Shown here one piece after another: positions 1-8,311 of a DNA stretch of 40,358 nucleotides. The stretch covers positions 1 through 40,358 of the IMG/VR virus record IMGVR_UViG_3300011271_000013; one strand, given 5' to 3'. The notes beneath the pieces are model-generated. The model did not search any database and was not told the origin of the DNA. It saw nothing but the letters and a program-made list of their open reading frames with translations. The stretch's first letter is position 1. Each line of letters starts with the position of its first letter. The DNA is from a virus. A program made the position numbers and the translations under genes.

Positions 1-664
1 AATCACTGATGAAAACGCTTCTAAGGCTTTCCTCCACGTTCTGTAGATTTCCGCCTGTGCCAAATTCCGAGTAGCTAGAGCTAAAGCGACCAGTATTTGT
101 TCCTGAGATATTGTAGCTTGTTCGAATTCGTCCATCGGGATCGACTCCGGTTCTGAGGAAATCTATTTTCTTCGCTAGTTCACGCATTGTTAGGAGATGA
201 TTAACGATCGGCCGGGCCACGAGAAAGGTCTGCATCTTCTCTAGGGCCTTGTGATCGGTGGTAGGGCGTCCCTGCTTGCGGATCACAGGGATCCCAAGGT
301 AGCCGAAGAAGAGCTTTTGGAGGTCGGGGTTGGAGCGCCAAGAGAAGGTTGGCATTCCCACTCCGTCGAGGACTATTTGTTCTAATTGGCCTTCCAGTTG
401 GTCGATCTTGTCGGCGTAAAGATCGATGACTTCCTGCCTCCTTCCCTGATCAACCAAGATACCCCGCAGTTGCATTTCAAGAACCGGCCCTTGTAACGCG
501 CGACTGAACGCATATGTCGGAGTGGTATGATCGTCCAATTGAGGGAGTAGCACTTCCAGAATCTCCGAAGTAATAGCGCAGTCGAGTCCATTATAAATAT
601 CCTCCCTTTGTTGTTGATCTTCGATGTCTTCGGGGTTGCGTTCATGAGTCTTAACAATCTTCAT
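1..664 (-). CDS. Family A DNA polymerase, polymerase-domain chain (partial, runs off left edge)
   Basis: This is the C-terminal chain of a phage family A (Pol I-like) DNA polymerase; 221 codons are visible before the window edge. It begins with residues that complete the 3'-5' proofreading site: Y24-N-G-L-D28 fits the exonuclease III motif YxxxD of Klenow-type enzymes. Thumb and palm follow, and the segment ISGTNTGRFSS followed by GNLQN is the conserved family A signature just before motif A, so the catalytic Asp residues lie beyond the edge. The ATG at 664 overlaps the stop of the preceding 51-residue gene (TGATG) and has an AAGGA ribosome site 6 nt upstream. Exonuclease motifs I and II sit in the separate upstream gene 821-1921, so two chains (or a rejoined product) are needed for proofreading. 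Family assignment is firm; how the chains assemble is inference. Confidence 0.9.
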   Translation of the reverse strand, partial: MKIVKTHERNPEDIEDQQQREDIYNGLDCAITSEILEVLLPQLDDHTTPTYAFSRALQGPVLEMQLRGILVDQGRRQEVIDLYADKIDQLEGQLEQIVLDGVGMPTFSWRSNPDLQKLFFGYLGIPVIRKQGRPTTDHKALEKMQTFLVARPIVNHLLTMRELAKKIDFLRTGVDPDGRIRTSYNISGTNTGRFSSSYSEFGTGGNLQNVEESLRSVFISD

Positions 665-819
665 CACTCATCCTTGATGGTGATATTGAATCTAGCCTCT
701 AACCTTTCTGCTATTTCAGCCGCTAATTCATGTTGAATTGAATCATCCCATAAGCAACAGTCCAGTTCAGTATTCTTAAGAGCACAAATAATCAATTCCA
801 GTAGTGGGTCTAGTTCCAT
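664..819 (-). CDS. 51-residue protein inserted between the two polymerase chains
   Basis: This is a small acidic protein of unknown function (begins MELDPLLELIICAL). The chosen ATG at 819 lies just after the stop of the UDG-exonuclease gene (821-823), with AGAGGG 9 nt upstream. The frame stays open upstream to 873, so longer in-frame starts exist (828, 873). Its stop overlaps the polymerase ATG. The DNA looks AT-richer than its neighbours. It lies between exonuclease motifs II and III of what is one continuous gene in ordinary Pol I enzymes, so it looks like an inserted gene. No homing-endonuclease motif (LAGLIDADG, GIY-YIG, HNH) is visible. It might bridge the two polymerase chains, but that is speculation. 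Confidence 0.55.
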   Translation of the reverse strand: MELDPLLELIICALKNTELDCCLWDDSIQHELAAEIAERLEARFNITIKDE

Positions 820-820
820 T

Positions 821-1921
821 TCATGCATCCCTCTTAATTGTCTTACTATTTCTATACTCGATTTTCCAGGCATGATGGTCTGTATATATTGAACCTAAGT
901 ATCCGAGTCCTTTGAGGCTTTCCGGTTGAAGAGCATGGTGAAGGAGCATGGTGTCGTGTTCGGCGCCCCGCACCGCAATCCCTGTAGTCCTGAGGATGAA
1001 AGGGATGTCATACAACCCATTTTGGAACAGTTTGGGGATTGATTGATCCTCAAGCACCTGACGTATAAGTTCCCAACATGATCGTTCAGCTTTTGCAGTC
1101 GGCCAATAGCTACCGCTCTTCCTTCGGGAGTCATGGAACGGAATAACCAAAGCAAGGTCTGGTCGGGGAGCAAATCCAATCCTCGTAATTTGCTTCCCGC
1201 TTGTTTCAATATCAACCGAAAGGATCTTGCACCCACGGACGTATCTATGCCAGAAGATGCGGATCTCAGCGAGCGACGGGTCTGTCCAGATGGTACATGG
1301 AGGCCGCGTGACATTTGGAGTATCCTTTTCTTTCAAGATCTTCGATAGATCAGCTACGGTTGTTGGTCTGAGTTCCCATTGTTTTGTGACCGCAGAAGGG
1401 TGGTAAGTAAGCAGAAGCTTATAACCGCTAACAGTATGAGTACTGACGCAAGTAGTACCACGAAGTTTTGTAATACCGGTACGGCCAGCCATAGCCCAAA
1501 GAGCGGTATTGCCCAAAGCAACAATGAGATTAGGGTCAACCCTAAGCACCTCATCACCAAGGCGGTCAAGTTCATGTTGAAATTCCTTTCGGACGTACTT
1601 TGATTTCTGCAAGATCGGATATCCAGCGATACCTTCGGCCTTCCCACCACAGAAGTGGAGAAGGTCATTGTTGGGCGGGTGTTGTTGAAAGACGTTAGTG
1701 CGATACAACTCTGGGTGAAGGTCCCATATCGCGGCGAGGGTCCATGGGTCCTTCGTCCGGTAGTATTTGGAGAGGTAGGATCGGTCTTCAGAAGTGAGGG
1801 TTATTACGCCTGCGTCGTTTAGCATCCGGAGTAGCTCGGCTCCAGTCGCCTCGACGAAGCCCTTGCCGATCTTCTTTTCATTCTCGCCCATTGCCTTCCC
1901 GACTAGGAAGATGGGTTTCAT
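821..1921 (-). CDS. Uracil-DNA glycosylase domain fused to 3'-5' exonuclease domain of Pol A
   Basis: This 366-residue protein has two domains. Residues 1-200 match the family 4/5 uracil-DNA glycosylase fold: FLVGKAMGENE (5-15) resembles the GEAPGxxE water-activating motif but with Lys in place of the first Glu; TNVFQQHPPNN (75-85) is the usual N-x-PP-N segment; LIVALGN follows at 132-138; LLTYHPSAV (170-178) is the HPS motif. The four cysteines of iron-sulfur UDGs are not present as a set. Residues 230-350 are a DnaQ-like exonuclease of the Pol A type: D237-I-E239-T (Exo I) and N301-G-L-Y-D305 (Exo II). The chain stops before Exo III, which is in the next polymerase gene. Likely roles are recognising template uracil and, jointly with the other chain, proofreading. 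Its ATG overlaps the stop of the 48-residue gene upstream. Confidence 0.85.
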   Translation of the reverse strand: MKPIFLVGKAMGENEKKIGKGFVEATGAELLRMLNDAGVITLTSEDRSYLSKYYRTKDPWTLAAIWDLHPELYRTNVFQQHPPNNDLLHFCGGKAEGIAGYPILQKSKYVRKEFQHELDRLGDEVLRVDPNLIVALGNTALWAMAGRTGITKLRGTTCVSTHTVSGYKLLLTYHPSAVTKQWELRPTTVADLSKILKEKDTPNVTRPPCTIWTDPSLAEIRIFWHRYVRGCKILSVDIETSGKQITRIGFAPRPDLALVIPFHDSRRKSGSYWPTAKAERSCWELIRQVLEDQSIPKLFQNGLYDIPFILRTTGIAVRGAEHDTMLLHHALQPESLKGLGYLGSIYTDHHAWKIEYRNSKTIKRDA

Positions 1922-2064
1922 GGCTTTGGTCTGAACTCAGCCACACGAGAGAATGACACATCCCATGTATAGAAATCATTCACAATCATCTTATAGATAT
2001 CCCCGTTCTCACAGAAGATCAGGATGTAGTCGCGGAATTGAACTGTGGATACGATCTTGTTCAT
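1918..2064 (-). CDS. Small hypothetical protein, 48 aa
   Basis: The frame begins MNKIVSTVQFRDYILIF and ends FSRVAEFRPKP. The ATG overlaps the stop of the DUF3310 gene, and its stop overlaps the start of the UDG-exonuclease gene, so it is translationally coupled on both sides. Such perfect packing supports it as a real gene despite its length. No family is recognised. It looks like a small beta-rich domain. Confidence 0.6.
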   Translation of the reverse strand: MNKIVSTVQFRDYILIFCENGDIYKMIVNDFYTWDVSFSRVAEFRPKP

Positions 2065-2492
2065 CACCTTTGCCCCTGCAACCTTCTGATCTCATCATCC
2101 AAATACCACTGAGCCTTCTTCAAGTTCTCCACGGGGTCCCCCTTGTCTTGATACCGCCAAAGGTATTTAATGGCATTTCCTACGTTGAAGTTGAGGTGCC
2201 GGGTGACTTCGATACATTCGATCCCCGACGGATGACGTCGGTAATGTGAAGGATTGATCGGGTCCTCGGCCACGGCCTCAACACTGACGGGTTCTTCGTT
2301 AGACAACGTTGTATGGTTCTGTGACTCCTGTGCATCGCCTTCACCAGATAACATATGGACCTGCCTTCGACGTAGGCGCGGCGCACCAAACATCTGTCCA
2401 GCGGCGTCATGTGTTTGCGGGTCTGGCGCGAGCGCGGTGAGGCCATCCACCATCTCCTTTTGCATTTCGTTGGTGAGTTGGAAGGGTTTCAT
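2064..2492 (-). CDS. DUF3310-containing phage protein
   Basis: A 142-residue protein whose C-terminal half (DPINPSHYRRHP, then GIECIEVTRHLNFNVGNAIKYLWRY and DPVENLKKAQWYL) is the DUF3310 domain common in phage replication regions. The domain is often annotated as a nucleotide-kinase-like or SaV-like protein, but its biochemical role is not settled. The N-terminal 75 residues are low in order and rich in Gln, Glu and Ser, perhaps a linker. It lies directly upstream of the polymerase genes, which fits a DNA-metabolism role. A block of hairpins (2633-2731) and a gene remnant precede it, so it may head its own segment of the leftward transcript. Confidence 0.85.
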   Translation of the reverse strand: MKPFQLTNEMQKEMVDGLTALAPDPQTHDAAGQMFGAPRLRRRQVHMLSGEGDAQESQNHTTLSNEEPVSVEAVAEDPINPSHYRRHPSGIECIEVTRHLNFNVGNAIKYLWRYQDKGDPVENLKKAQWYLDDEIRRLQGQR

Positions 2493-2495
2493 CTC

Positions 2496-2607
2496 TTAGG
2501 ACTCCATCGATTCGAAGTTATCAGCAAAGTACTGGGCCGCGACTAGCCATACCATTGATCCATGGAATCATCTCGGCGATCTCTGTCCTTCGGTACTGCT
2601 TGAACAT
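2496..2607 (-). pseudogene. Remnant of a small conserved phage gene (internal deletion plus frameshift)
   Basis: A frame starting at 2607, with GGAG 7 nt upstream, reads MFKQYRRTEIAEMIPW and stops at 2521. In the next frame the same DNA reads WLVAAQYFADNFESMES and stops at 2496. From memory, short phage proteins of roughly 80-90 residues begin with a Y-R/K-R-T-x-IAEM segment and end with a WLVAxxYFxxNFE segment, separated by a middle part missing here. The parsimonious reading is a gene that lost its middle and its frame. Alternatively the 28-residue frame 2521-2607 is still made. Confidence 0.4.
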
Positions 2608-2632
2608 TAGATTACTCCGTAAAGGGAAAAAG

Positions 2633-2661
2633 GGAAGGGAGACATTTGCGTCCTCCCTTCC
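2633..2661 (-). terminator. Rho-independent terminator of the leftward transcript
   Basis: Read leftward, a 9-bp perfect stem (GGAAGGGAG with CTCCCTTCC, loop 11 nt) is followed by CTTTTTCCCTTT. It lies downstream of the ssDNA-binding-like gene and would reduce transcription into the polymerase genes. Confidence 0.65.
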
Positions 2662-2666
2662 AGTTA

Positions 2667-2687
2667 GCTGGGTTCAACGTACCCAGC
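2667..2687 (-). other. Hairpin, 7-bp stem
   Basis: GCTGGGT and ACCCAGC form a perfect 7-bp stem with a 7-nt loop. It is the middle one of three consecutive hairpins between 2633 and 2731. Without a T tract of its own it may be a processing or pausing element. Confidence 0.45.
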
Positions 2688-2694
2688 GGGAGGC

Positions 2695-2731
2695 CTCAAG
2701 GCAGAGGGGAGGTTTGGCGTTCTGCCTTGAG
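2695..2731 (-). other. Hairpin, 11-bp stem, just after the ssDNA-binding-like gene
   Basis: CTCAAGGCAGA pairs with TCTGCCTTGAG across a 15-nt loop. It starts 7 nt beyond the stop of the 2738-3184 gene in the leftward transcript and could protect the 3' end of that mRNA. There is no T tract. Confidence 0.5.
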
Positions 2732-2737
2732 GGAACT

Positions 2738-3184
2738 TTAACTCACCCGAGCCGTAGATCCGACCTTCGAATACACTCGTTTGCCATCATCACTCGCCTC
2801 ATGCTTGATGTTGACGATGACCTCCGAGTTCGGCACGTCGTCGAGGCCCTCAGCCATGGAGCGACCTGTGAGATCAACTCCACAATTGATGATGAACTCC
2901 TTCAGCATGTTTGCGGATTTGTCCGTGATGTAGAAGGTGTTATCCACTTCCTGTCCTGCAATGGTTTCACCATCCTGTTGAAACTCAGCAATGGCATCCG
3001 GGTCCACGTCATCGAGAGGAGCGATGATCTTATGAGTGAACTTCAAGAAATCAGTTTTCTTCTTCGAGCTTTGGCCCTGCTCCGGCAAGCCTACCACTAT
3101 TGTATGATAAGATCCCATCGGCAATACCGCCGGGGGTTTGATTTCTTCAGAAGGACGGTTCAAGATGTCTTGGAAATTAGCCAT
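2738..3184 (-). CDS. Putative ssDNA-binding-like protein, 148 aa
   Basis: The frame is open further upstream, but the ATG at 3184 (MANFQDILNRPSEEI) is the natural start because the preceding gene stops at 3207. The protein is beta-rich with a central acidic stretch (APLDDVDPDAIAEF) and a late segment EVIVNIKHEASDDGKRVYSKV that looks like OB-fold strands. It lacks the acidic C-terminal tail of classic SSBs. Its position next to a Sak4-like ATPase and a PD-(D/E)XK nuclease suggests a recombination or replication partner. The functional call rests mostly on context. Confidence 0.55.
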   Translation of the reverse strand: MANFQDILNRPSEEIKPPAVLPMGSYHTIVVGLPEQGQSSKKKTDFLKFTHKIIAPLDDVDPDAIAEFQQDGETIAGQEVDNTFYITDKSANMLKEFIINCGVDLTGRSMAEGLDDVPNSEVIVNIKHEASDDGKRVYSKVGSTARVS

Positions 3185-3206
3185 TTGGTCACGCTTTCGT
3201 AAGGGG

Positions 3207-3425
3207 TTAGATTTCGGCAACATCGTCTGGATTGACGAAGTTAGGGGCAGGCTTAGCTGGCCTTCGTGGCCATTGCCTTGCTTCTGTTTTCTCCTTTTCT
3301 GCTTCTGCAACTTCCTGTTTGAGGAGTAGCCATACACTCGCGGCAAGGTCTCCGCATTCAGGTGTTCGATGTAACGCCTCAAGGGCGATGGATAGATTCT
3401 TGATTCGGAGTGTGGCATCACTCAC
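3207..3425 (-). CDS. Small helical hypothetical protein, 72 aa, GTG start
   Basis: Begins (M)SDATLRIKNLSIALEAL and has a Lys/Glu-rich middle that looks like a coiled coil, then a Pro-rich end (RRPAKPAPNFVNPDD). The GTG start shares a G with the TAG stop of the ATPase gene, with an AGAGGAGAG ribosome site 4 nt upstream, so translation is coupled. Function unknown. Confidence 0.65.
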   Translation of the reverse strand: MSDATLRIKNLSIALEALHRTPECGDLAASVWLLLKQEVAEAEKEKTEARQWPRRPAKPAPNFVNPDDVAEI

Positions 3426-4297
3426 TAAACTCTCCTCTGCATCACTACCGCCTTTGGCTTCACCTGTGTTGCGGCTGATACAGGTGCTATCGCGGCTGGT
3501 TTGCCGCGAAGGGTTTGGAAGATCTGAGCCAGTCCTGTGTCGGCGTCGAGGACTTTGTCCTTAAAGGAGTCCATCTTGGGCATAGCTAGATCTATCATTA
3601 CATCGCTTTCAAGTTGCACCGTTCGCTTCCCAGCGATGTTCTTCAATCTCACATAAACAGGGAAGTACTGTGGGATCTTAGGGGAGAGCTTCTGTCCCAC
3701 CCCTTGAGGAAAGATCTTGGTCTTTCCATCCTCCATAGACATATAAACCCCGTGGCACACCACGATGACGTTGGTCTCGAAGGTGTCTGAGGTGAGGTTA
3801 GCGAGGACCATCTCCACTGCGTCTTGGGCCTGACCATAGACGGCGCGGCCATCCATCTTAGGCCCGGCTAGTTGGACGTGGTAATCATAGGCGGCATCAC
3901 AGAGTCGGGATAGCGAATCAATTACGATGATACAATCCTCACCCCATTCCTTCGGCTTCCCAAACTCCACCTTGGCATTACCGTCCTGATAGGTCCAATT
4001 ATCCAGCATCTTCATAGCATTGATGAAGGCCATAGCGACACCGTCAATCATTGGGCCGGTTGGCCCGGCTTTGATCTTGTCCCGTAAGGTACGGAACTCG
4101 ACGTTGCCAATCTTGTCGTGGCATTGTTTCATGACTGCGTACTTGAGAGAGTCCAGGAGGTTATCCATGTCGAGGATGCGGAGCTGGTAACCTGCTTTTA
4201 CTAGAGAAACGAGAGAGGTGGTCTTCCCTGATTTGGCGTCGCCGAGATAGAGGACCTTAACGAATGAATTGGATTTGTGATCGCTGAGAGATGGCAT
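3425..4297 (-). CDS. Sak4-like RecA-fold ATPase (AAA_24 type)
   Basis: A 290-residue P-loop ATPase. GDAKSGKTT (19-27) is the Walker A motif and IIVIDSL (123-129) the Walker B motif; the compact single-domain layout matches phage Sak4/AAA_24 recombinases, which stimulate single-strand annealing with a cognate SSB. A further conserved segment, NVIVVCHGVYM, fits the strand carrying the sensor residue of this family. The C-terminal 35 residues are a basic, Ala/Pro/Val-rich tail. A possible SSB two genes downstream and the Cas4-like nuclease upstream are typical neighbours. I am confident of the ATPase fold and fairly confident of the Sak4 assignment. The ATG at 4297 has AAGGA upstream. Confidence 0.8.
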   Translation of the reverse strand: MPSLSDHKSNSFVKVLYLGDAKSGKTTSLVSLVKAGYQLRILDMDNLLDSLKYAVMKQCHDKIGNVEFRTLRDKIKAGPTGPMIDGVAMAFINAMKMLDNWTYQDGNAKVEFGKPKEWGEDCIIVIDSLSRLCDAAYDYHVQLAGPKMDGRAVYGQAQDAVEMVLANLTSDTFETNVIVVCHGVYMSMEDGKTKIFPQGVGQKLSPKIPQYFPVYVRLKNIAGKRTVQLESDVMIDLAMPKMDSFKDKVLDADTGLAQIFQTLRGKPAAIAPVSAATQVKPKAVVMQRRV

Positions 4298-4300
4298 GAT

Positions 4301-4492
4301 TTATCCTTGTGGGGGTTTCATCAGGACTTCCGTATACAGCGTAAGCAGATCCCCATCACGGATATCGTAAAGATCCATGTTGATAGAGATAGTGATAGTT
4401 GTAGAACCCCCAATGGCAAGTTTGAAGAAGTTGGGGCCCCGGTCTACTACTCGGCCTTTACCGAGGGAAAGGATAGCACGGAATTCATTCAT
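4301..4492 (-). CDS. Small hypothetical protein, 63 aa
   Basis: Begins MNEFRAILSLGKGRVVDRGPNFF, with alternating hydrophobic residues suggesting a small beta-barrel. The start at 4492 has AGGA 9 nt upstream; an in-frame ATG at 4501 is possible. The gene overlaps the end of the 63-aa gene before it. Function unknown; it lies between recombination genes. Confidence 0.6.
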   Translation of the reverse strand: MNEFRAILSLGKGRVVDRGPNFFKLAIGGSTTITISINMDLYDIRDGDLLTLYTEVLMKPPQG

Positions 4493-4676
4493 GTCCTTCA
4501 TTCCTAAATATAATCCTAACTCTATCTCCTACGGCCCAAGTGGGCACCGCGCGAAATAAGATCGGAACTTTGTAACAATCAAACCAAACATTAAATTCAT
4601 CCTCCCAAGGTTCAATCTTTGTTATAAAAGTAATGTCTCCATGTTCAATCCTTAACGGGCCTTGAGTGGATTCCAT
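4485..4676 (-). CDS. Small beta-rich hypothetical protein, 63 aa
   Basis: Begins MESTQGPLRIEHGDITFITKIEPWEDEF and continues with VGDRVRIIFRNEG, an OB or SH3-like pattern. The GGAGG site 7 nt before the ATG at 4676 is strong. It overlaps the nuclease gene by 25 nt upstream and the next small gene downstream. It could be a nucleic-acid-binding accessory to the nuclease or ATPase; that is inference from position. Confidence 0.65.
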   Translation of the reverse strand: MESTQGPLRIEHGDITFITKIEPWEDEFNVWFDCYKVPILFRAVPTWAVGDRVRIIFRNEGHE

Positions 4677-5641
4677 CTCTCATCCTCCGGTAGTTGTATG
4701 AAGTCACTCTTCAAGTAATGTTCTCGCACGGAAGGGTTCTTTGAACAGACATCCCGGAACCTACACCCCCCATACATCCCACAAGACTGGTCATTCTGAG
4801 GCCAATGATCCGCGTTCGCGAACGCCTCAGCCGCGTTTAGCCAATATTCCAAATCTACAAGCCACTCGTCGATGAGATCGTCAGAGCGATACGTGAACCC
4901 CCGGACGAACTTCGTGGTGAATTGCTCAAGGCCTATCTGTGCCCCTTCTATAATAATCCCCTTCACTTCCATATCCATCACTACCTTCCCGGCAAAGGTG
5001 TAGAGGGTCATTTGGTTGTTCGGCGCGAAGCCTTTGAACCAATAATCCCCAAGGCTGGAGGTTGTGGTTTTATGATCAATAACCATTATGTTTTCATTTA
5101 TGTCTACGACGCGATCGAGATGGCCACATAAGAGATAGTTCTGTTGCGGTAAGGTGACTAACTTACCGTCAATCATTGCATCATATGTACCAACAGGGCC
5201 GAAGTCCAATTCAAACTTGAACGAGAGTTCCACCGCCGGCCGACCATTCTCTAAGATGATGGTTTTCGCGGCGTCCTCACGATAGTTATCGAAATAATCC
5301 ACCACGAGCTGAAGAAGGGTACGCGGGTTCTTATACGTCCCAGCCTTAGTCCCGGTGTCTGGGTCCCAATCTTTGATACGCTGAAGTAAGAGCCGGATGG
5401 TTTCCCTAAGAGCATCCTCAAACTGAAGCCCGTTGGCGCGGAAGTTCTCGAAGTCTTGGATCGCGAAATGATACTCCCCTCCAAAGCGAAGGTGGATGTT
5501 TTCATCCTTCGCGACGTAGCCGTCGATTATGGTGTATTTGTAGTATTGGGGGCATTGTTTGAGAGCACCGAGGCATGTGGAGTCCCACGCGATGCGAAGG
5601 TAGGTTCCGGGCAAGTATTGGAAAGAGGGCACGTTGTCCAT
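4652..5641 (-). CDS. PD-(D/E)XK exonuclease with iron-sulfur cysteines (Cas4/RecB-like)
   Basis: A 329-residue nuclease; the in-frame GTG at 5644 is an alternative start. Counting from that GTG, H59 (GGEYHFAI), D176 (LCGHLDRVVD), D190-H-K192 (VIDHKT) and Q211 with Y215 (QMTLY) form the PD-(D/E)XK core. One Cys near the N terminus (C31, KQCPQYY) and three near the C terminus (C288, C294, C300, in CGMYGGCRFRDVC) have the spacing of the 4Fe-4S staple seen in Cas4 and AddB nucleases. The expected role is resection of DNA ends to ssDNA for the Sak4-like ATPase encoded nearby. The ATG at 5641 overlaps the upstream stop (TGATG), with GAGG before it. Confidence 0.85.
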   Translation of the reverse strand: MDNVPSFQYLPGTYLRIAWDSTCLGALKQCPQYYKYTIIDGYVAKDENIHLRFGGEYHFAIQDFENFRANGLQFEDALRETIRLLLQRIKDWDPDTGTKAGTYKNPRTLLQLVVDYFDNYREDAAKTIILENGRPAVELSFKFELDFGPVGTYDAMIDGKLVTLPQQNYLLCGHLDRVVDINENIMVIDHKTTTSSLGDYWFKGFAPNNQMTLYTFAGKVVMDMEVKGIIIEGAQIGLEQFTTKFVRGFTYRSDDLIDEWLVDLEYWLNAAEAFANADHWPQNDQSCGMYGGCRFRDVCSKNPSVREHYLKSDFIQLPEDERWNPLKAR

Positions 5642-6024
5642 CACCGACCTCGAAACAGGTGAACGCCTTGGATCACCGGCATGTAATCCTTGGCTTGTTG
5701 TAAGAAGTCCCGTGCGGCATCGTAGGGAGCCTTTTCGACATCAAGTCCATCAATTGCTTTCAAGGCCAAGATAGCAAAGTGGCGTTTGATGTCTGGATAG
5801 TTAAAACCGCGCTCACCGCGGATGGTATTAAGCTCACGGTAGTAGTAATCGAAATATTCAATCGTTCGCTTGTTGCGTAGCGTGAGTGGTCGTAATTGAT
5901 CAAGCAACATTCCACTGGTCTCGCTTGATCCTTCTGAAACAGTACAACCACCACCTTCTCTGATTTCCTTTATCTGAACAATGTCATGTTCGAACACAGC
6001 CCAGTCACCTATTTTCCATTCCAT
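5641..6024 (-). CDS. Hypothetical protein with SH3/KOW-like N terminus, 127 aa
   Basis: The N terminus (MEWKIGDWAVFEHDIVQIKEI, then SGMLLDQLRPLT) has the strand pattern of a small SH3-like barrel that often binds nucleic acid or protein. The C-terminal half is helical (FAILALKAIDGLDVEKAPYDAARDFLQQAKDYM). It is coupled to the nuclease by a TGATG overlap, which may indicate a partner. No family is recognised. Confidence 0.65.
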   Translation of the reverse strand: MEWKIGDWAVFEHDIVQIKEIREGGGCTVSEGSSETSGMLLDQLRPLTLRNKRTIEYFDYYYRELNTIRGERGFNYPDIKRHFAILALKAIDGLDVEKAPYDAARDFLQQAKDYMPVIQGVHLFRGR

Positions 6025-6025
6025 T

Positions 6026-6325
6026 TTAAAGCCTCCTAATGAAGCCCTTACCGGGCGGCGGTGGGGTGAGACCTACATCTTTAATTTGCTGAGATGTTTT
6101 CGAGAGTGGAGCCGCGGCCGGCTTCTGGATCTTCCCCAAAAGGGCCTTAATATCCACCGCCGGTGCTTCGCCTGTGGCCTTCTTCGTCCTGCCTCCGGCT
6201 TCGCGGGTCATCCGTTGCTTGCGTTGATAAGCGATGATCTTGTCGAGGTCTTGCTTTGTGAGATCGAGAGGATCGAGAGACATGAGGGCTGTGAGATCGG
6301 TTGGGGGTTCGGAGATGTCGGTCAT
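6026..6325 (-). CDS. Hypothetical protein, 99 aa
   Basis: Begins MTDISEPPTDLTALMSLDPLDL, followed by a helical, basic segment (DLDKIIAYQRKQRMTREAG) and a Pro/Lys-rich flexible tail ending PPPPGKGFIRRL. The ATGA overlap with the gene before it marks the start. This layout is common in phage early proteins of unknown role; the basic helix may contact DNA. Confidence 0.6.
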   Translation of the reverse strand: MTDISEPPTDLTALMSLDPLDLTKQDLDKIIAYQRKQRMTREAGGRTKKATGEAPAVDIKALLGKIQKPAAAPLSKTSQQIKDVGLTPPPPGKGFIRRL

Positions 6326-6552
6326 TCTAATTCCCTCACCAGTTTCTTTGCGATGAAAAGTACGTTAGGAGGGTTAGGCTGAAATATCATAAGTTCATCA
6401 AACCCCCCACTTTGCTTCCGGCATTCATAGAGGGCATTTACGAGCAAACGCTTATCATCCTCACTGGCACATTCTACAAAGAGGCCAAACTCCAACGCGG
6501 CGGCTTCTTCCCAGAAGTTCAGGTAAGAGAGGGGGTTGGCTTTTGTAGACAT
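6322..6552 (-). CDS. Hypothetical protein, 76 aa
   Basis: Begins MSTKANPLSYLNFWEEAAALEFGLFVEC and ends NVLFIAKKLVRELE. An alpha/beta mini-domain is likely from the residue pattern. The ATG at 6552 overlaps the upstream stop; an in-frame TTG at 6555 is an alternative. Function unknown. Confidence 0.6.
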   Translation of the reverse strand: MSTKANPLSYLNFWEEAAALEFGLFVECASEDDKRLLVNALYECRKQSGGFDELMIFQPNPPNVLFIAKKLVRELE

Positions 6553-6887
6553 CAATCCAACTCACTCAAAAGCTCAACCGAAGAGGGATCTAAACTCGTC
6601 CGCTCTGCATAAACCCACCACGCCCCATCAGTATCCTCCTTGAGCTTTAGCTGCAAAGGGTCATACTCACTTGAGCCCCAAAGAGGCATGTTCGGTTCAT
6701 GTACCTTCTTGTTCTCTTCCCGATGCAACACCCGAGCCTTGTTACAGCGGAGCCGGAAGTAATGCGCATCCGCATACGCGCCCAGACAAACCCGACCCCC
6801 TTTAGGGTCATCGACGACTCTTTCGAAGAAATCTAAGCAATCCTGATATGATTGGAGAGAGGTAGGGAGGGACATTTCATTCACCAT
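6552..6887 (-). CDS. Hypothetical protein, 111 aa
   Basis: Begins MVNEMSLPTSLQSYQDCLDFFERV and contains the segment YADAHYFRLRCNKARVLHREENKKV, followed by a strand-rich end (YDPLQLKLKEDTDGAWWVYAERTS). Starts at 6887 or 6875 are both possible. It overlaps the helicase stop, so it is co-translated with the helicase. No family is recognised; a helicase-associated role is possible from context only. Confidence 0.6.
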   Translation of the reverse strand: MVNEMSLPTSLQSYQDCLDFFERVVDDPKGGRVCLGAYADAHYFRLRCNKARVLHREENKKVHEPNMPLWGSSEYDPLQLKLKEDTDGAWWVYAERTSLDPSSVELLSELD

Positions 6888-8311
6888 TGTATCTGTTCAG
6901 AGTCGATCTCTGTTAGTCTATCGCTTGAGCGAGTTGAGATGACGTAATCAAGATTCTTATTTTGAGCGGAGGGGTCCTTCCGCACCAGCCAAGGATCGAG
7001 ATGAATGACATTCTCCCATTCCAAGCCCTTGGCCTTATGGCCTGTGGTGAGGAGGATGCTACCGCTTTGCTCGAAGATATGCTTGACGTAGGCAAGAGCG
7101 CCGTGGAGGTCTCGGCCTTGCAAGGCAAACACCCTCATACATGCAGCCATATCCGAAGCTGTCTTTGATTCCTTTTCGAGGCGATCAGCTTCCCACTCCT
7201 TAATTGAAGCCAAAACCCCATCCCTCCGGAGAGTTTCTGGACCGAGCTTCTTCATGATACCTATCAAACGAGGTCCAATATCACTGCCAGCAATAGAGAT
7301 ACTGCGGCCAGCCCCGAGCAGACGAAAAGCCATAGATAGAAGCGGTGCGTTGTTGCGGCATATGATAGTGATATCATCATGAATATCAGAAACGCTAAGA
7401 TGAGATAGCTTATCAACCCGGCCTCCTTCTGAAAACCATTTAAAGTGCGGGACGTGCCAATGCACGTTCTGTACAATCCGTGAGGGGCATCTGAAAGAGA
7501 TGCTCAGAGGCAATCCCTGGCACTTGTACGTTTCCGTGGCTTCTTCAATCCCACCTGCTTTAGCCCCTCTAAATCCGTATATGTTCTGCCAAGGGTCCCC
7601 AACTCCAATAAGCCTGCCGCGAACAAGCTTCCCAAGAAGGGCGTGATTGATCGGTGACAGGTCTTGGTATTCGTCAACGAGAACAAGTGGAAACTGAGGG
7701 TATGTACCACCGAACAGCGCGGGCATGTATATCTGATCGTTGTAGTCAATGAGCCCTTCGTAGGATTGCTTGATGCTACGCTGAAGGACGATATCGATGA
7801 GGTCGGCGGTGAGGTCATCAGGGAGTTCCTCTAAAGCTCTATGTAGTTGTAAGCGCGTAATAAGTCGTTTGGCGTTGGGATAGAGATCGCCGGGGATGTA
7901 GCCCAGAGCTTTGGCGAGCCCCACTCCAGCCAAGACTTCATGATACACTCCCCATAAAGTATCGCGGTAGTCCTTGGGGGCGTTATCAATGATGTCTCTA
8001 AGGATAAGATTAGATTTCTTTGCTTCAAGGCGCAGACTTCTGCCTGTAGCCCAGATACGATGTCCGATGGAGTTGAACGTTCGTACAGTGGTGGTGGAAA
8101 GCATACGCTTCGAGGCTTCATCGGCGTTCTTCCGGTTGAAGACAAGGTAGAGAATTGGACCTCGCGGCACAGCCCTTTCAAGCAACTCAAGAGTGGAGGT
8201 CTTCCCTGTCCCGGCCAAGGCAGAGATCATCAAGTTGGCTTTAGAAGCCTTTGCTGCGGCAAGGATGGCATCTTGTTCTTCGGTGTTGGCATGGCTCATT
8301 GTATCGGTCAT
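6881..8311 (-). CDS. UvrD-like superfamily 1A DNA helicase
   Basis: A 476-residue helicase with the SF1A motifs in order: motif I ALAGTGKTS (31-39); motif Ia LVFNRKNADEA; TVRTFNSIGH (76-84); the DYNDQIYMPAL segment; motif II LVLVDEYQDLSP (209-220); motif III LIGVGDPWQNIYGFRGA (234-250); motif IV ISFRCPSRIV; motif V LLTTGHKAKGLEWENVIHL (420-438); and motif VI LDYVISTRSSDRL. It is shorter than UvrD (about 720 aa), with compact 1B and 2B insertions. The expected role is 3'-5' unwinding in replication or recombination beside the Cas4-like nuclease and Sak4-like ATPase. A replicative DnaB-type helicase is not seen in the window. Confidence 0.9.
   Translation of the reverse strand: MTDTMSHANTEEQDAILAAAKASKANLMISALAGTGKTSTLELLERAVPRGPILYLVFNRKNADEASKRMLSTTTVRTFNSIGHRIWATGRSLRLEAKKSNLILRDIIDNAPKDYRDTLWGVYHEVLAGVGLAKALGYIPGDLYPNAKRLITRLQLHRALEELPDDLTADLIDIVLQRSIKQSYEGLIDYNDQIYMPALFGGTYPQFPLVLVDEYQDLSPINHALLGKLVRGRLIGVGDPWQNIYGFRGAKAGGIEEATETYKCQGLPLSISFRCPSRIVQNVHWHVPHFKWFSEGGRVDKLSHLSVSDIHDDITIICRNNAPLLSMAFRLLGAGRSISIAGSDIGPRLIGIMKKLGPETLRRDGVLASIKEWEADRLEKESKTASDMAACMRVFALQGRDLHGALAYVKHIFEQSGSILLTTGHKAKGLEWENVIHLDPWLVRKDPSAQNKNLDYVISTRSSDRLTEIDSEQIQW

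Follow-up and report, generated by a model that had tools for sequence, protein, structure and literature searches.

How is the proofreading domain of a phage DNA polymerase kept when its catalytic motifs lie on two different genes? The question is raised by the polymerase locus of the window, by which we mean the whole 40,358-nt stretch of viral DNA that was analysed (IMG/VR record IMGVR_UViG_3300011271_000013). An earlier note, made from the letters of this DNA, had described an exonuclease domain broken between Exo II and Exo III, with gene 821-1921 carrying DIET and NGLYD and lacking Exo III, and with Exo III (YNGLD) at residues 24-28 of the next polymerase gene, which starts at 664. This description is borne out by the present analysis, and the features are located as follows.

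821..1921, minus strand: chain 1, 366 aa, with a UDG-superfamily-like N-terminus and the first part of a DEDDy 3'-5' exonuclease; it ends in RNSKTIKRDA and a stop
1202..1213, minus strand: Exo I motif DIET, chain-1 residues 237-240; D237 and E239 in 74/74 rows
1007..1021, minus strand: Exo II motif NGLYD, chain-1 residues 301-305; D305 in 76/76 rows
824..841, minus strand: chain-1 tail T-I-K-R-D-x, conserved, among split relatives only
664..819, minus strand: 51-aa gene, ATG at 819-817 and stop at 666-664 (54 aa if ATG 828-826 is used); predicted small helical protein
671..675, minus strand: AAGGA, likely ribosome site for chain 2 as judged from sequence, within the 3' end of the 51-aa gene
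2..664, minus strand: chain 2, ATG at 664-662, with the remaining exonuclease domain (Exo III) and a family-A polymerase domain (DNA_pol_A, 1.6e-13)
581..595, minus strand: Exo III motif YNGLD, chain-2 residues 24-28, including Y24 and D28; Y and D in 76/76 rows

Chain 1 matches two Pfam families, UDG (3.7e-10, residues 3-186) and DNA_pol_A_exo1, the family-A exonuclease domain (5.3e-6, residues 229-348), as well as the PHROG 17 DNA polymerase family (2.2e-22). Chain 2 opens with MKIVKTHERNPED at 664, and its start codon overlaps the stop of the 51-aa gene in the sequence TGATG (666-662). The gene continues beyond the end of the window; in relatives it is complete, at about 500 aa. On the same strand, 2064-8311 holds neighbouring replication genes: DUF3310 / nucleotide kinase-like, SSB-like, Sak4-like, exonuclease and helicase. 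The UDG-superfamily-like domain (residues 1-190 of 821-1921), N-terminal to the exonuclease, is also present in intact relatives, and the N-terminal regions of the SPO1 and Gordonia phage polymerases are similar to it. In the complete chain 2 of relatives (e.g., L005, L008, L009), polymerase motif C reads HDA, compared with HDE in Klenow; it is HDS in Kuura and Mel-JY34.

Relatives were collected from viral contigs using chain 1 or chain 2 as queries, both blind to the split state, and phage records added few. The scan of the collections relied on conserved peptide patterns and kept only the best 80 loci, so the frequencies given here are not population estimates. After removal of duplicates, at least 164 distinct loci are split between Exo II and Exo III, at least 46 carry a single full-length gene with an uninterrupted exonuclease domain, and at least 15 have an intact exonuclease domain and a break later, past the NLQN motif. 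Five intact genes (gap below -1400; imperfect Exo III pattern) were excluded from the split count, bringing it from 169 to 164. A tree was built from both domains, and GTE2 and SPO1 served as its outgroups. It places the 160 full-length split loci, without exception, in a single clade of moderate support (0.78); the sister of this clade consists of the 46 intact and 15 later-split loci (support 0.98). No intact gene falls within the sampled split clade, and identity within it goes down to about 40%. In every split relative the two genes are direct neighbours, and their order and strand do not vary. A single-chain exonuclease domain, usual though not obligatory in family A, is therefore absent here (164/164 listed clade loci split), and comparison with the intact sister clade identifies the gene as broken. 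At the level of sequence comparison, this distribution shows a fission that is old, monophyletic and fixed in a large phage clade. The clade includes an isolate, Caulobacter phage Kuura. A DNA-level search of phage records gave no match.

The earlier note also drew attention to the small gene between the two polymerase genes. It is indeed AT-richer (38% GC versus 49% for both flanking genes) and has a ribosome site of its own, AAGAGGG at 835-829. The split, however, does not depend on it. Among the 164 listed loci, 50 have the identical split with no insert at all: 29 with an ATGA overlap (-4), 14 with a one-base overlap (-1) and 7 with the genes 0-3 nt apart. These gapless relatives read SKTIKRDA and a stop, then MRLVHTHLCEPE, and are still two genes. 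The split is thus independent of the insert, which removes the 51-aa gene as its cause and leaves nothing to splice.

Both sides of the junction are distinctive. Split relatives share the chain-2 start consensus M-[KR]-I-I-x-T, and most of the 164 listed loci carry a KRD, KKD or GRD variant of the chain-1 tail. Intact homologues run from WKDEGKEWDLASGNENW directly to VYNGKD, with neither the chain-1 tail nor the chain-2 start, so that about 20 residues spanning the junction are missing from them. The tail is encoded as AAG AGG GAY, and its arginine codon is AGR in 74% of cases compared with 22% elsewhere in the same genes. AGR is also commoner where an insert lies downstream (62/70, versus 22/43 without one; P=1.7e-5). 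Given this codon bias and its increase next to inserts, the last chain-1 codons (AAGAGGG in the window) probably double as the ribosome site of whichever gene comes next.

A single polymerase might nevertheless be made from the two frames. The earlier note had considered an element removed from RNA, joining the frames at TAAGAC, which does occur at 845-840 and 653-648, two copies in one codon phase at a distance of exactly 192 nt; this distance is divisible by 3, and joining the two sides leaves an open frame. Against such an intron stand the 50 listed relatives that are split with no insert, mostly in another frame and with a stop just upstream, and inserts that are protein-coding from end to end (median coverage 1.02). 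No Rfam intron model matched window positions 1-4300 up to E=1, so the proposed covariance search over the junction region came back empty. Nor do intact homologues join at TAAGAC: the residues spanning the junction, both tail sequences included, are missing from them. As a splice or recombination repeat, TAAGAC was rejected, since it is found in 11 copies in the window (both strands), which is chance level, and is not conserved. Words of at least 6 nt are shared between exonuclease tail and polymerase head in 65% of loci, compared with 56% of randomly paired loci. Joining at the protein level, by a split intein, has been proposed for MIJ3 PolB, and split inteins co-occur elsewhere with homing endonucleases and split polymerase genes (PMC6892783). 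In our case, chain 1 continues for only about 13 residues past its last conserved exonuclease residues, and chain 2 reaches Exo III after about 23, with no intein-sized domain in either. The locus thus contains neither an intron nor a split intein, and we regard both readings as extremely improbable. Slightly more credit, though still very little, is due to a fusion protein made by programmed frameshifting or stop-codon read-through, which would render the split only apparent. Gapless junctions are mostly in the -1 frame, and L007, L055, L059, L067 and L159 are in frame with one stop between the genes. Yet at 42 of the 49 gapless junctions of full-length loci a stop at most 10 codons upstream of the polymerase start closes that frame, and frameshift fusion is therefore not a shared mechanism. 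Moreover, neither the stop codon nor its distance is conserved, and inserts are tolerated at any length and in any frame.

If two chains are made, they could meet in one active site, as the earlier note had suggested, or the exonuclease domain could be dying, with proofreading dispensable, the break tolerated and the chains under no need to meet. Fission within a domain is often the sign of a pseudogene. Chain 1, however, is an open gene in all relatives, and the catalytic residues on both chains are invariant clade-wide: D237, E239 and D305 on chain 1, Y24 and D28 on chain 2. The full DEDDy set (Exo I D.E, Exo II D and Exo III Y...D) is thus present, spread over the two chains. The Exo III Y...D pair was found in 225/225 listed distinct loci when the split and intact clades are taken together, and Exo I was absent in only five of these 225, whose contigs are cut. 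A decaying domain is for these reasons unlikely.

The fold was modelled with AF2 on a natural in-frame fusion, L007 read through its TGA, whose two parts are 91 and 93% identical to the window chains; the model is thus of one covalent polypeptide and not of two chains. The alignment contained the viral-contig loci and the window, with two proteins of named phage records left out. The fusion was predicted with a pLDDT of 91.1 and a pTM of 0.85, and pLDDT falls below 50 only at residues 359-367, at the junction. The model matches the Klenow fold over both domains (E 2.5e-25, about 620 columns), and a sequence profile likewise aligns with Klenow in one continuous stretch through both halves. In the model, the residues MKLI at the conserved start of chain 2 adopt a strand. 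Because the junction is the sole stretch of low confidence in a model that otherwise matches Klenow, the break most likely lies in a loop at the surface, after Exo II and before Exo III, a position at which two chains could come together and leave the fold intact. Mutual information between the chains places the chain-1 tail with chain-2 residues 1-22 among the top pairs more often than expected (3 versus 0.2), and the UDG domain with residues 1-22 as well, an enrichment that variable columns may explain. Two chains forming one active site is most likely, given invariant catalytic residues across both chains and a Klenow-like fusion model. We infer that the chains would assemble and proofread, and that their production would be coupled.

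The junction itself is a place of continual change. Inserts of 57-1362 nt are present in 114/164 listed loci, and their 157 ORFs fall into 91 clusters. Several are endonuclease genes, although the window break contains none: Pfam HNH_3 was found in the inserts of L018, L075, L103 and L107 (weaker in L006 and L080), Endonuclease_7 in those of L012, L064, L065 and L110, and LAGLIDADG_3, as a weak match, in that of L060. Decay is visible as well. Set against the complete HNH gene of L018, the L019 insert is a remnant; of the endonuclease-VII-like gene seen in L012, L016 has kept just the ends. In both remnants the middle is deleted. Presence and absence of an insert require at least 37 changes on the tree, compared with a mean of 42 after shuffling. 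L216 (no insert) and L241 (194-nt insert) are 92% identical over the last 300 nt of chain 1. Sequence comparison thus shows turnover of inserts at this junction. At L012:4373-4567 and in the L127 insert the chain-1 tail occurs a second time (DTIKRDE and DTVKRDA, each with a stop; 20/24 nt), perhaps a trace of insert stacking. Tail copies were rejected as a general signature of insertion, being clear in L012 and L127 only.

In the sister clade, the break past NLQN (15 loci) is in several cases occupied by HNH-like, MazG-like (named by eye) or other gap genes, and apparently arose more than once on the tree. It lies between NLQN and motif A in L003, L282, L298, L301, L312, L322, L329, L333, L334, L339 and L341, often with genes in the gap that were named by eye, HNH-like in L298 and L333 and MazG-like in L312 and L334. 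The first break in the clade of the window likely also came from insertion of an endonuclease gene.

With this background, the 51-aa gene of the window can be placed. Its family has six members including the window, every one at the same junction, and dN/dS is 0.11-0.28 for close pairs; together these features indicate that the frame is a real gene. The AF2 model (pLDDT 87) found no fold match with an E better than 1.4, and the protein was not found in phage records. In L006 an HNH gene adjoins it. The family's purifying selection and, among the collections searched, its restriction to the polymerase junction might suggest a dedicated assembly factor or inhibitor of the window polymerase, and the earlier note had thought of a helper in assembly. 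The gene is, however, carried by just 6/164 listed loci, dispersed over the tree, and other junctions have unrelated genes or none in its place. A dedicated role is accordingly a poor prospect, and as far as can be told the 51-aa gene is a passenger of the junction.

In the arrangement that we propose, chain 1 (UDG-like domain with Exo I and Exo II) and chain 2 (Exo III and polymerase) would be made from adjacent, translationally coupled genes and would come together at the exonuclease domain, each contributing residues to a restored DEDDy proofreading site. The fission took place once, before diversification of the large phage clade, and has persisted since. The stop/start junction is a tolerated insertion hotspot, at which homing-endonuclease genes and other small cargo genes arrive, degenerate and are lost again; the 51-aa gene is one of them. 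We consider it highly probable that this is a two-chain family-A polymerase with a proofreading site rebuilt by assembly, a single ancient fission and a junction serving as an insertion hotspot. With a more modest degree of confidence, it may be extended to an obligate two-chain replicase throughout the clade, in which the site is complete only once the chains have come together. In this wider reading the clade would have inherited the fission as a fixed trait from its ancestor, the operon would offer homing endonucleases and cargo genes a lasting place to land, and the last chain-1 codons would supply the ribosome site for any such arrival.

Precedents for such assembly and activity are known. 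As recounted in a review (PMC2988022), PolB of the Aeromonas phages 25 and 44RR is split as gp43A/gp43B (Petrov, Ratnayaka and Karam 2010), and the phage 25 chains co-purify and are active. As far as that account goes, the likeness lies in a replicative phage polymerase encoded by two genes that are separated by a homing endonuclease gene or by an untranslated spacer; in contrast, gp43A/gp43B belong to family B and to few phages, whereas the present clade is family A, cut inside the proofreading site, fixed and with many different inserts. NrdA of phage Aeh1, a case of genes-in-pieces split by mobE (PMC2988022), is the second precedent: insertion of a homing endonuclease gave two chains and one working enzyme, as may also have happened here. 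It is a different enzyme in a single phage, whereas the split in this clade far outlives any one insert. MIJ3 PolB is also split, with an HNH gene between the parts as in some loci of this clade (the window itself lacks an endonuclease), but its chains are proposed to be spliced by a split intein (PMC6892783), of which the window polymerase has none. E. coli Pol I Klenow shares the exonuclease and polymerase fold in one chain, unlike the two chains and N-terminal UDG-like domain seen here. No split family-A polymerase of this kind was found among the open-access papers searched, a result that does not prove that none has been described.

In the papers searched, the split phage polymerases described are isolated family-B cases, and the clade of the window adds a family-A polymerase that is cut within the proofreading site. 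It also carries a warning for annotation, as the exonuclease half in Kuura is listed as a “hypothetical protein”. Near-identical phages with empty and filled sites, such as L216 and L241, offer a natural experiment on gene turnover. As the split has persisted while its clade diverged to about 40% identity, it becomes testable whether fission is of benefit, with proofreading set by the supply of a subunit, or is simply irreversible, with homing endonucleases re-entering the junction again and again.
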